Positions 28,874-33,521 of a stretch of DNA of 45,700 bases are shown one piece after another. Position numbers and translations under genes: made by a program. Numbering within the stretch: the first letter of the stretch is position 1; every line of letters begins with the position of its first letter. Under the pieces are notes generated by a model. It made no database searches. It worked only from the letters and a program-made list of their open reading frames with translations, and was not told the origin of the DNA. This DNA comes from Paracoccaceae bacterium (GTDB taxonomy: Bacteria; Pseudomonadota; Alphaproteobacteria; Rhodobacterales; Rhodobacteraceae). The stretch spans positions 1 through 45,700 of the forward strand of contig JACIYW010000005.1 in the NCBI GenBank assembly GCA_014359745.1, read 5' to 3'.

Positions 28874-28909
28874 CTTCCGGCAGACGAATGGCTTCCGGCA
28901 GACGAATGG
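28874..28909 (+). repeat. 18-bp tandem duplication before the secreted Cys-rich gene
   Basis: CTTCCGGCAGACGAATGG occurs twice in perfect tandem (28874-28891, 28892-28909), ending just before the GGGGGAA ribosome-binding region of the next gene. Confidence 0.95.
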
Positions 28910-28919
28910 GGGAAATGCG

Positions 28920-29378
28920 ATGTTCGAATCACCACACACCATCTGCATGATGGCGGCCCTGATCTGCGCGCCGTTCGCGGGCCATGCCGCCGAAGGCCAG
29001 CGGATCACCGTGACCGGCGAGGTCATCGATACTTGGTGTTATTATTCGGGCGTCATGGGCGGGCCGGACGCCATTCAGGGCACAGCACATCACACCTGCG
29101 CGCTGTGGTGTTCGGCGGGGGGCATACCGGTGGGGCTGCTGGCCAGCGACGGCACGGTTTACATGGTACTGAAAATCGAAGGCGATGCCACATCTGCCAG
29201 CGGCGACACGCAGTTGCGCCTTGCCAGCCACGAGGTGACAGCCGACGGCATCTTTTATGCGCGCGATGGGATCAATTATCTGGTGGTTGAAAAGGTGATC
29301 GCCGACCAAGGCATCACCAACCAATCCCACACGGTTTTCGGGCCGGTGCCCCCCTTCGCAATTCCCGAACCGCAATAG
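28920..29378 (+). CDS. Secreted Cys/His-motif protein of unknown function
   Basis: A 152-residue protein with an N-terminal signal peptide (hydrophobic about 8-20, cleavage probably after GHAA). The mature part has a beta-rich pattern and a striking set of potential metal ligands: C40 in VIDTWC, then H57, H58, C60 and C64 in HHTCALWC, followed by GGIPVGLL. I recall this Cys pattern in unassigned bacterial proteins but cannot name a family. It heads a likely operon with another secreted Cys protein (9 nt away) and a SCO1-like copper chaperone, so copper or thiol chemistry is a fair inference. GGGGGAA precedes the ATG. Confidence 0.75.
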   Translation: MFESPHTICMMAALICAPFAGHAAEGQRITVTGEVIDTWCYYSGVMGGPDAIQGTAHHTCALWCSAGGIPVGLLASDGTVYMVLKIEGDATSASGDTQLRLASHEVTADGIFYARDGINYLVVEKVIADQGITNQSHTVFGPVPPFAIPEPQ

Positions 29379-29387
29379 GGGCAGACC

Positions 29388-29951
29388 ATGAAACACCTCG
29401 TCGCACTTCTGTGCCTTTGCGCCACCCCCGCACTTGCCGACGATTTCTCGGCCGGTTCCGATGCACAATCCTGGGGCCTGCCCGGCGAAAGGCCTGCGCG
29501 CTTTACCGCAAAGGTGGTCGATGTGCTTTGCACCCTGACCGGCGATTGCCCGGGTGCATGCGGCGGCGGCGCGCGGCAACTTGGCCTGCTGCGATCCGCC
29601 GACGATGCGCTGATCCTGCCCAACAAGAACGCCGAACCTTTTACCGGCGCGGTTGTCGATCTTTTGCCCCATTGCGGCGGGATGGTAGAGGTGGACGGGC
29701 TGATGATCGAAGATCCGGCGATCGGGGCGCACAACATCTATGCGGTGCAAAAGCTGCGCCCAGCGGGTGCCGCCGACTGGACGAATGCCACGCGCTGGGT
29801 GGCAAACTGGGCCAAGGCAAACCCGCAGGCCCCCGACGATGGCGCCTGGTTTCGCAATGATCCGCGCATCAACGCTATGATCGGGGCAACGGGATATCTT
29901 GGCCTCGGGCTGGAAACCGATGCGACCTACCTGAAAGAGCTGTTTCCATGA
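29388..29951 (+). CDS. Secreted Cys-rich protein of unknown function, distant paralogue of its upstream neighbour
   Basis: A 187-residue protein with a clear signal peptide (cleavage probably after ALA, before DDF). After it comes KVVDVLC (C48), C54, C58 and then ARQLGLL, the same order of elements as the upstream gene (VIDTWC, Cys pair, PVGLL), so the two look like diverged copies. C96 is a fourth mature cysteine. The C-terminal 70 residues (WTNATRW, WFRNDPRIN) have no match to the neighbour. It overlaps the SCO1-like gene by 4 nt. Function unknown. Confidence 0.72.
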   Translation: MKHLVALLCLCATPALADDFSAGSDAQSWGLPGERPARFTAKVVDVLCTLTGDCPGACGGGARQLGLLRSADDALILPNKNAEPFTGAVVDLLPHCGGMVEVDGLMIEDPAIGAHNIYAVQKLRPAGAADWTNATRWVANWAKANPQAPDDGAWFRNDPRINAMIGATGYLGLGLETDATYLKELFP

Positions 29952-30574
29952 TCGGGCTGCGCGCCGTCACCCTGGCCCTTTCCCTGACACTTGCAATCAC
30001 CGGGATCGCACGCGCGCATGACGGGGCCGATCACGCCGCCCCCACCCCCGAAAAGGCGGCCGATCCAGTCACGCCGCTGCCCTTTCAGATTGGCGGGGCG
30101 TTTTCCCTGATCGATCAAACCGGCACCCCGCGCCGCGCGCCAGACCCGCGCGGGCAGTTCCAACTGTTGTTCTTTGGCTATGCCAATTGCCGCAGCATCT
30201 GTTCGGTGGCCCTGCCGATGATCGCCGAAACCGTAGATCTGCTGGCAGCAAATGGCATCACAGCGACACCGGTGATGATCACCGTCGATCCGGCCCGTGA
30301 CACGGTCTCGGCCATGGGCCCGGCCCTTGCCCGCATCCACCCGGATTTCATCGGGTTGACCGGGGATCGTGCCGCCCTTGATCAGGCCTATCGGGCGTTT
30401 CAGGTCGAAAGCCGGGTGGTGTTCGAGGATCCCGTCGATGGGCCGGTCTATGCCCACGGCAGCCATGTCTATCTGCTTGATCCGCAGGGCACGGTGGTCA
30501 CGCTGTTTCCGCCGATTCTGTCGGCGGCGCGCGCAGCACAGATCGTCACCAGATACGTCACCCACGGCGGTTAG
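29948..30574 (+). CDS. SCO1/SenC/PrrC-family copper-binding protein
   Basis: Thioredoxin-fold copper chaperone/thiol reductase of 208 residues, exported by an N-terminal signal segment. The copper site is present: C81 and C85 in NCRSIC (the CxxxC motif) and H170 in YAHGSHVYLLD, five residues before the conserved Tyr as in SCO1. SCO proteins deliver copper to the CuA centre of cytochrome oxidase or keep its cysteines reduced. Here it is the last gene of an operon with two unknown secreted Cys proteins, not beside oxidase genes. His-rich mature N-terminus (HDGADH) may also bind metal. Confidence 0.88.
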   Translation: MIGLRAVTLALSLTLAITGIARAHDGADHAAPTPEKAADPVTPLPFQIGGAFSLIDQTGTPRRAPDPRGQFQLLFFGYANCRSICSVALPMIAETVDLLAANGITATPVMITVDPARDTVSAMGPALARIHPDFIGLTGDRAALDQAYRAFQVESRVVFEDPVDGPVYAHGSHVYLLDPQGTVVTLFPPILSAARAAQIVTRYVTHGG

Positions 30575-30712: not shown

Positions 30713-31903
30713 CTAGCGGTGAATGCCGTTCTGCACCCGCATAGCGGCCAGGGTGCGCGCCTCGTACCCTTTGAGAACCCGGCGCGCGGTGTGGGTATGC
30801 ACCGGCAGCCGCGCCGCGGCGTCCGCCAGGCATGACGCCGCAACCCGTTCGGGGTGCCGCGCCAGCGTGCCCAACCACAGGCTTTCAACCCAGCACCCGT
30901 TGGCGCAAATCAGATCGGGTTCGGCAAACACCAGCCCGATATACTGCGTCATCCCCCCCGACGGGGCTGACACCGCCATGCGGCCATGCACGAAATACCC
31001 GGCTTCGACCAGAACCTCTTCTTCCCCGAAAAGATACTCCACCTCGGCGCCGCCGACCACGATCCTCTGGCGGGGCAGCACGCACAGATCGCGCCGCGCG
31101 CCCAGATAGTTGGCGCGAATGACCTCGGGCACCCAGGCCCCCCGGCCGGGCATCCGCACCCCCGCCGACCACAAAAGCGGCTGCGCGCCCATGTCGCGGG
31201 TGGTCACAAGATCGCCAGGGCGCAAATCGGCCGCCGCGACATAGCCTGTCGGCGTCAGGATCAGGCTTTGGGCGGCAAGGCCCGGCATCGGGCCCGCCAC
31301 CGGCATGCGCCCTTCGGCGACGCCGACCCAGATCACCGCATCATCCGGCCCCGCTGTGCTCGCATCGATCATCGCGCCAAGCGCCTGCGCGGGAAAGGGC
31401 TGCGGATCGTGGCCGGTGCTTACCGACACCGCGCCGGTCAGGACATCCTCGATCGCAAGCGACCAGAACCGCGCCGCCTCGTCCCAGTGATAGCCAAGGA
31501 TCACCGCCCCCGACAGGCCGCCGCCGGGCACCGGCGCCCCGGCCCGCAACAGTCGCCCGCCCTGCCGCTGGGCAAGGGAAACCCCGCTTTCGGCGTCGAT
31601 GCCCAGCATGAAATCATGGGTCTGGCTATTGTCCTGCCGGTGATGGATCAGGGTTCTGTGGCCGCGCCAGGTGTCGGGAAACCGGCATTCCACCACCAGC
31701 GATCCGCATCCGATGGCGCCCGCGCCCGGCCCCCAGGGCCGGGTTGGCACCGCCCCCTCGCCCGGCGCGCCCGACACCAGCCGCCATATCGGCGCGCCGG
31801 GCGCCCGCGCAGGTTCGCGCAACCGGATGACCGAACCGGCGACCGCCCCCACCCCGCCCGCAGGCGGCCCGGTTTCCGGCATATGGCGTCGCGCAACGGT
31901 CAT
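30713..31903 (-). CDS. Hint-domain protein with degenerate active site
   Basis: A 396-residue protein. Residues about 60-200 form a beta-rich region resembling a LamG-like sandwich; residues 208-396 align with the Hint (Hedgehog/intein) domain of the neighbouring gene. The nucleophile Cys position is Gly208, and the PQHR histidine motif reads PRQR (His to Gln). The histidines in the VHILFDRH block are also absent (IGLVFAEP). Self-cleavage is therefore unlikely. The start has GGGGGCTGA upstream. It lies 28 nt from the end of the other Hint gene, probably co-transcribed. Confidence 0.82.
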   Translation of the reverse strand: MTVARRHMPETGPPAGGVGAVAGSVIRLREPARAPGAPIWRLVSGAPGEGAVPTRPWGPGAGAIGCGSLVVECRFPDTWRGHRTLIHHRQDNSQTHDFMLGIDAESGVSLAQRQGGRLLRAGAPVPGGGLSGAVILGYHWDEAARFWSLAIEDVLTGAVSVSTGHDPQPFPAQALGAMIDASTAGPDDAVIWVGVAEGRMPVAGPMPGLAAQSLILTPTGYVAAADLRPGDLVTTRDMGAQPLLWSAGVRMPGRGAWVPEVIRANYLGARRDLCVLPRQRIVVGGAEVEYLFGEEEVLVEAGYFVHGRMAVSAPSGGMTQYIGLVFAEPDLICANGCWVESLWLGTLARHPERVAASCLADAAARLPVHTHTARRVLKGYEARTLAAMRVQNGIHR

Positions 31904-31931
31904 TCAGCCCCCGATCACCCCGCAGCTCCCG

Positions 31932-33521
31932 TCATGCCGCAGCACGCGAGAACAGCACCTGTGCCTCATACCCGCGCAGCGACCGGCGCGCGGCGGGGCT
32001 GTAGCCAAGCCCGCTTTGCGGATCAATCTCGGGGAAAATCGTGCATATTTCCTCAACGATCGCCCGCTCGAAACTGGCGGTGGTCTGCGGGCCTGGCAGA
32101 AAGCTTTCGGTGGCAAGCCCTTCGGACCAGACAACCTGATGCCGGTCAAAAAGGATGTGCACATATTCGACCATCCCGCCCGCGCGCACCTTCACGGATC
32201 GGCCATTCACCAGATCCTTGGCCGACACCAGCACCTCGGCCTCGCCGAACCACAGTTCGGCAAGCGCATCGCGGATCAGCACCCGGTGCTGCGGCGACAC
32301 CAGCAACGTGCGATGCGGCCCGAACGTGCCTGCGCGGATCTCGATCGGGGCCAGCACCCCCACGGCCTCGACCGTCCGCCGCCCGATCCAGCGCAGCGGT
32401 TGCGGCCCGTCATCATGGGTCAGCACCAGGTCGCCCGCGCACAAGGTTTCGACCGGCACCTCGCCATCGGGGGTGCGGATCAGCGTGCCCGCAACGAAAC
32501 ACGGTATGGAATTCAGGGTTACAAAGGCCGTGTCGGAAATGCCGTTCCCGTTGCCATTGGCCACCGTATAGGAAAAATTGACGCTTTCCTCATCGGCATC
32601 GGCGAGCACGGTCAGCGTGCCGTCGGCGTTCAGGGTGATCTGCTGGCCGGTGGCCAGCGTCACCGTCGAACCCGCCGTCACGTCCTGCCCGTTGATCTGG
32701 GTGATGGTCAGCGTGCTGCCGGGCGGGCCCTGATCATTGCCAAGCACATCGATCGTCGTGCTTTCGCCCGGTGCGACCTGAAGTTCGTCATCCAACGCGA
32801 TCAGCGCGGTCTGCACGCTGTTGCCGGCAATCAGGATGCTGCTGTCATAATTGGAATCGCTGACATCGGCGATGCCGATCCGGATCGAATTCACCTCGCC
32901 GGGGGTCACCGCCATCTTCAGCGTCAGGGTAACGGTAAAGCCGTCCATCTCGGTGTTGAACTGGCTGGAGGTGTTATCATTATAAAGGTTGATATTGCTG
33001 GTCTGGTTGATGTTGTTGACAGAGGTCTGCCCCTCTCCGATCACCAGTGGCACCGACGTGCCGTTCACCCACACCCCCATCACATCGTTGAACAGCGAAT
33101 TGGTGAATTCGGGATATTCATCCGAAGCAAACACGAATTGCATCGTCAGCGTGTCGCCGGTGGGGATGAAATCGACATCCAGCATCGACGCATCATAGGT
33201 ATTGGTGCCCGCCAGCGCGTTGAAATCGGCGTTGTTGTTCACGCCACTGGTGTTGGTGGAACGCGAATTGCTTTGGTTCGCATCGTTGTGTTTGCTGGTG
33301 CGGTTGGTGAAATCACCCGCGTCGCCCGTCGACAGGATGACGCCGGTGTCACCGGGCATCACGTCGGGCGACACGGAATCGCCGTTTGAATAGATGCCCG
33401 AAGAATCCCGGTCGCCGGTATAACTGGCCCCGACAACGGTCACGCCATCGCCAAAGATCGTCTCGGCCATCTGGGTTGCCGAAGCGTTGGTGTTGACCGG
33501 AAGTTGCGTTGCTCTAACCAT
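31932..33521 (-). CDS. Choice-of-anchor L / cadherin-like / Hint-domain surface protein
   Basis: A 529-residue protein. Residues 1-240 match the choice-of-anchor L region (LPVNTNASATQMAETIFG, FASDEYPEFT), Asn/Ser/Thr-rich and less GC-rich than the surroundings. Residues 245-335 are a cadherin-like repeat (TTIDVLGNDQG), and 341-529 a Hint domain with nucleophile C341 in CFVAGTLIRTPDG and H412 in SPQHRVLI. Such Rhodobacterales proteins are exported without a classical signal peptide, perhaps by type I secretion, and may self-process. The start is ATG 33521; its upstream AGGGGG is within a hairpin. Confidence 0.85.
   Translation of the reverse strand: MVRATQLPVNTNASATQMAETIFGDGVTVVGASYTGDRDSSGIYSNGDSVSPDVMPGDTGVILSTGDAGDFTNRTSKHNDANQSNSRSTNTSGVNNNADFNALAGTNTYDASMLDVDFIPTGDTLTMQFVFASDEYPEFTNSLFNDVMGVWVNGTSVPLVIGEGQTSVNNINQTSNINLYNDNTSSQFNTEMDGFTVTLTLKMAVTPGEVNSIRIGIADVSDSNYDSSILIAGNSVQTALIALDDELQVAPGESTTIDVLGNDQGPPGSTLTITQINGQDVTAGSTVTLATGQQITLNADGTLTVLADADEESVNFSYTVANGNGNGISDTAFVTLNSIPCFVAGTLIRTPDGEVPVETLCAGDLVLTHDDGPQPLRWIGRRTVEAVGVLAPIEIRAGTFGPHRTLLVSPQHRVLIRDALAELWFGEAEVLVSAKDLVNGRSVKVRAGGMVEYVHILFDRHQVVWSEGLATESFLPGPQTTASFERAIVEEICTIFPEIDPQSGLGYSPAARRSLRGYEAQVLFSRAAA

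Follow-up and report, generated by a model that had tools for sequence, protein, structure and literature searches.

Two secreted cysteine proteins of Alphaproteobacteria are inherited together, usually with an SCO1/SenC protein of their own

Analysis of a 45,700-nucleotide stretch of DNA (here called the window), together with genome-scale surveys, revealed that two small secreted proteins, designated P1 and P2, are always inherited together, usually with their own SCO1/SenC protein (SCO), and this linkage is well supported. The data establish P1, P2, and SCO as a functional module and point to a periplasmic system of metal or thiol proteins that has not yet been described. From these data we infer that P1 and P2 form a heterodimer, that the metal is copper, and that SCO acts on P1-P2.

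Layout of the cassette in the window

The cassette comprises three tightly packed genes on the forward strand (28920-30574), encoding P1 (28920-29378; 152 amino acids), P2 (29388-29951; 187 amino acids), and a cassette-specific SCO (29948-30574; 208 amino acids) that the genome encodes besides its housekeeping SCO. P1 and P2 are separated by 9 bases, the last 4 bases of P2 (ATGA) are also the first of SCO, and a Sec-type leader was recognized by eye at the start of both P1 and P2. An earlier sequence-only reading had described this arrangement of two small exported Cys proteins followed by an overlapping SCO gene, and the arrangement is real. Directly 5' of the P1 ribosome-binding region lies an 18-bp tandem duplication (cttccggcagacgaatgg x2; 28874-28909, forward strand), and a GDSL esterase gene is found 5' of the cassette. 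Just 3' of the cassette, two consecutive Hint-domain (PF13403) genes occupy 30713-33521 on the reverse strand. The same reading had stated that no oxidase is nearby, and indeed the window genes that were scanned or read include no oxidase.

Sequence conservation of P1 and P2

The conserved pattern of P1 runs V-I-D-T-W-C40, M46, H57-H58-T-C60-x3-C64 and, farther on, V-G-L-L; that of P2 runs V-V-D-V-L-C48, C54-x3-C58 and then L-G-L-L, with an additional cysteine at C96. In mature numbering, P1 residues C17, M23, H34, H35, C37, and C41 were invariant in 58/58 close homologues. In a wider P1 set (n = 21), M23, H34, C37, and C41 were retained in 21/21 sequences and C17 and H35 in 20/21, with H114 being present in all 20 of the wide-set sequences that reach that position. 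For P2, C31, C37, C41, and C79 were kept in 69/69 homologues. Conservation of the Cys/His positions, which the sequence-only reading had proposed as a check, was therefore found in both families. Mean column identity was highest for P1 (81%), followed by P2 (70%) and SCO (56%). The P1 copy of one locus (L171:2375-2788) reads IDSWYLL where the first conserved Cys should stand, and a stop lies close to the match; the dedicated SCO is likewise missing from its family, and the copy possibly represents decay.

Neither P1 nor P2 matched any Pfam or NCBIfam entry, whether searched as single proteins or as profiles. Searches of PDB sequences in both forms likewise returned no credible relative of either protein, no P1 or P2 match was found in the plasmid collection, and the literature searched yielded no paper on P1 or P2.

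Shared domain and predicted fold

Comparison of the wide family alignments with hhalign revealed significant similarity between the core domains of P1 and P2 (E = 2.5e-5; 7.9e-7 after query and template were exchanged), with a score of 35.9 versus a maximum of 25.0 among 300 column shuffles, while P1 versus SCO and P2 versus SCO both remained at background score. In addition, the P2 homologue of one locus (L161) was matched by the P1 HMM (E = 7e-4). The ordered motif common to P1 and P2, as noticed earlier, thus exceeds chance, but the accompanying statement that the two proteins are otherwise dissimilar has to be dropped, since they have a whole domain in common and P2 carries an extra helical part at its C terminus.

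AlphaFold models (pLDDT of 77 for P1 with 58 homologues and 82 for P2 with 69 homologues) predicted the same order of elements in both proteins, namely, strand-helix-helix-strand-strand-helix-strand-strand, with both Cys helices placed between strand 1 and strand 2. The P1 model is moderately confident, with lower pLDDT around the Cys/His loop. The best PDB matches of both models in Foldseek were OB-fold proteins (RPA, SSB, and LysRS, i.e., lysyl-tRNA synthetase), all with E > 0.04 and none significant; the strand order fits a five-strand OB barrel with a helix between strands 3 and 4, and "OB-like" is used here as a statement on topology alone. The predicted folds of P1 and P2 therefore do not differ, which was another check proposed beforehand, and with both significant profile similarity and the same predicted fold, the two proteins fall into one family. 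As judged from profiles and models, P1 and P2 are paralogues, diverged copies of one Cys-rich domain.

Distribution and gene neighborhood

P1 was detected at near-full length in 18/149 Rhodobacteraceae genomes, and P2 was detected in the identical 18; at the class level, P1 proper and P2 occurred in the identical 15/385 genomes, these counts being based on genomes from different genera or species, with kinship ignored. One further weak P1 match in the 149-genome set (G125) proved to be a membrane relative. No P1 or P2 match was found outside Alphaproteobacteria in the phylum sample. A scan of 84,980 genomes returned 265 relatives, from which 80 loci were kept, with open reading frame boundaries in other genomes taken from simple open reading frame calling. 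P1 and P2 were neighbors at each locus inspected, including 80/80 of these, and SCO came next in 78, the contig ending first in the other 2. The neighborhood survey suggested by the sequence-only reading thus turned out in its favor: SCO adjoins P1-P2 in all 78 named-genome loci on a long enough contig and in 17/18 positive Rhodobacteraceae genomes.

The surroundings of the cassette vary between loci. In 32/80 loci, the next gene after SCO, in the same orientation, encodes a membrane-anchored rhodanese that has its catalytic Cys, often with an alpha/beta hydrolase coming next; in the window this position is without a rhodanese. Examples in L087-L155 show the rhodanese gene directly 3' of SCO in the same apparent operon (e.g., L122:7549-8013). 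Other recurrent neighbors (MdoG, glycosyltransferase, ABC transporter, SHMT, and NAD kinase) look like lineage synteny, and no conserved third-party client gene was found beside the cassette in the loci examined.

A dedicated SCO clade

The window SCO matched PF02630 with an E value of 3e-37 (128 bits versus a cut-off of 22.8), and its solved relatives include human SCO2/SCO1 and Blr1131. The CxxxC motif and distal His are invariant in 17/17 aligned cassette SCOs, so the intact CxxxC-His site attributed to this gene from sequence is well founded. The motif reads CRSIC in the window and CxxIC in nearly all aligned relatives, while the remaining SCOs of the sample have CPDxC; this difference characterizes the subfamily and concerns no defining ligand. 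Copper binding and a role in copper-site assembly are putative for the cassette SCO.

A profile of the cassette SCO gave scores of 195.8 bits or more in 17 genomes, each of them positive for P1-P2, and no other SCO of the 149 genomes exceeded 128.1 bits. Accordingly, the cassette SCO occurred in 17/18 P1-P2 genomes versus 0/131 others (Fisher p about 2e-21, kinship ignored). Each positive Rhodobacteraceae genome also contains a housekeeping-type SCO. Phylogenetically, the cassette SCOs of Rhodobacteraceae form a 100/100 clade on a long stem, and those of other alphaproteobacterial families form a 99/99 clade, which includes the unlinked SCOs of two genomes (G435 and G512) that have P1-P2 without a neighboring SCO, yet carry the cassette-clade SCO elsewhere; the surroundings of these unlinked genes, inspected by eye, gave no clue. 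Two independent SCO recruitments were considered, and a single origin of all cassette SCOs was not rejected (p-AU 0.59).

The dependency between the partners runs one way, with the special SCO not found without P1-P2 (in the 149-genome Rhodobacteraceae sample) and P1-P2 found without the special SCO. One other alphaproteobacterial family (f81) has kept P1-P2 and has no cassette-type SCO, its members G229 and G513 having one SCO each. In the Rhodobacteraceae genome G066 (L044, 7000-9200), an intact P1-P2 pair lacks the neighboring SCO, with transposase-like open reading frames downstream (by eye) and the hydrolase gene still there. Such a one-way dependency fits P1-P2 as a client of SCO at least as well as P1-P2 as its fellow chaperones.

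Possible function

As a tentative reading whose chance falls somewhat short of even, we favor P1-P2 acting together as a two-subunit periplasmic metal/thiolate protein, most likely with copper, that is matured by its own SCO. A more specific and more doubtful version is that the two subunits make up a previously undescribed kind of periplasmic copper (or copper-sulfur) protein, which would be based on a Cys/Met/His OB-like domain and would have an SCO and, in some lineages, a rhodanese of its own for assembling the site. One OB-like periplasmic domain would have given rise to both P1 and P2; P1 would hold the candidate metal/thiolate site (Cys, Met, His, His, Cys, and Cys), most likely for copper as Cu(I), and P2 would be its thiol-only partner, with three or four Cys. 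The neighboring SCO would serve as a dedicated assembly factor that either loads copper into the P1-P2 cysteines or keeps them reduced, and the membrane-anchored rhodanese may supply or remove sulfur in some lineages. The roles of P1-P2 as client and SCO as assembly factor are favored because the special SCO is not found without P1-P2, whereas the reverse does occur, and because conservation is highest in P1. The identical genome sets of P1 and P2, the invariant ligand-type residues of P1, the cassette-clade SCO present elsewhere in G435 and G512, and the lack of a conserved third-party client gene at the loci examined also speak for this reading. Against it, the P1 model is only moderately confident, SCO proteins can serve as thiol reductants instead of copper carriers, f81 retains P1-P2 without a cassette-type SCO, its member L171 has lost the first P1 Cys, and G066 is without SCO.

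An unlikely alternative is a copper-delivery relay in which P1 and P2 assist SCO as additional chaperones that bring copper to a separate cuproenzyme encoded elsewhere. Secretion, the CxxxC spacing common to P1/P2 and SCO, and Cys/Met/His residues resembling those of known Cu(I) chaperones would suit such a relay, and SBP56 (the Cu-dependent methanethiol oxidase family) was commoner in positive genomes (13/18 versus 14/42 among 60 Rhodobacteraceae genomes; p = 0.0099, uncorrected). However, the association of SBP56/MtoX with the cassette is weak and may reflect shared ancestry, the window's own genome has no SBP56, and no client co-occurs strictly: the sulfur-oxidation link via SoxB was rejected (11/18 positive genomes versus 28/42), and PCuAC, being universal, was uninformative. 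Moreover, P1-P2 outlast the loss of the dedicated SCO, and P1 is conserved more than SCO, both of which argue against such a relay.

Rather improbable is a thiol-disulfide/persulfide relay in which disulfides or sulfane sulfur would be handed on among P1, P2, SCO, and the rhodanese in the periplasm without copper. The CxxxC pair in all three cassette proteins, the rhodanese that follows SCO at some loci, and the Cys-only makeup of P2, devoid of Met/His ligands, are consistent with it, as is the peroxiredoxin/thioredoxin fold, which is the fold of SCO. Thiol exchange, however, needs neither the invariant Met/His of P1 nor the distal His of SCO, and the rhodanese is missing from more than half of the loci, the window included. 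The periplasmic copper-delivery or thiol-redox relay put forward in the sequence-only reading is partly supported: none of its three refuting conditions (differing folds, lack of Cys/His conservation, and rare SCO adjacency) was borne out, while no metal binding and no client were found and f81 has P1-P2 without a cassette-type SCO.

Distant relatives of P1 bear on the nature of the site. The C, M, H, C, C signature of P1 was present in 8/8 distant membrane-anchored relatives (hhalign versus P1, E = 1e-14), whose genes adjoin a gene for a Ferric_reduct and Rieske protein, and this neighbor suggests that the role of the P1-like domain involves redox chemistry or a metal. In L172-L178 and L055 (e.g., L172:2512-4375), a two-gene unit pairs a Ferric_reduct+Rieske membrane protein with an unannotated protein that is anchored in the membrane and has the P1-like domain at its C terminus; neither this unit nor its second protein carries a family name. 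The least probable reading is that P1 binds Fe-S, zinc, or haem instead, that the cassette serves in electron transfer or has a structural function, and that SCO only keeps cysteines reduced. The Rieske/ferric-reductase proteins that accompany the distant P1-like domains are iron redox partners and speak for it; against it, they are absent at the P1-P2 loci examined, where the shared partner is SCO.

Comparison with known systems

SCO proteins are usually labeled as cytochrome oxidase assembly factors. The third gene of the cassette encodes a true SCO1/SenC protein (PF02630) by its CxxxC and distal His, and it differs from the other members in forming its own long-stem clade, in having CxxIC versus CPDxC, and in being found only in P1-P2 genomes. 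A distinct SCO clade tied in 17/17 cases to two unnamed, highly conserved secreted proteins would offer a new client or partner for SCO biology and would mean that common marine roseobacters (Roseovarius, Litoreibacter, Tateyamaria, and Jannaschia) possess a system for handling metals or thiols; in cassette-bearing genomes, the SCO gene count would mislead as a proxy for oxidase assembly.

NosL, PCuAC, and CusF carry Cu(I) in the periplasm by means of Met, His, and/or Cys, and CusF is an OB-type barrel. P1, P2, and their aligned relatives gave no Pfam match to these carriers, and the residue set differs. The membrane-anchored P1-like domain of L172-L178 and L055 shares the signature and profile similarity described above, but it is longer, anchored in the membrane, and without P2 or SCO alongside.

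In Rhodobacterales, the mtoX-SCO1/senC-mauG operon places an extra SCO beside a presumed copper client (PMC5739008), and because an SCO beside a proposed copper client is thus a known layout, it supports P1-P2 as the client of SCO. The partners here are P1 and P2, with no SBP56 or MauG gene among the cassette neighbors identified. CutF-like proteins are small secreted CxxxC maturation factors needed for a copper protein, and they are recognized by a size of <170 amino acids, a signal peptide, CxxxC, a conserved C-terminal PP, and a multicopper oxidase neighbor (PMC8456105). P1 agrees with them in size, leader, and CxxxC, while P2 has 187 amino acids; both differ from them in lacking an adjacent multicopper oxidase, DUF2946 similarity, and a conserved C-terminal Pro-Pro and in having a larger OB-like fold. 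By the tests made, P1-P2 belong neither to the mtoX operon type nor to the CutF-like type. The libraries searched contain no description of the P1 and P2 families or of the cassette SCO clade, and the kind of system that they represent, a dedicated metal/thiol maturation cassette, is already known.
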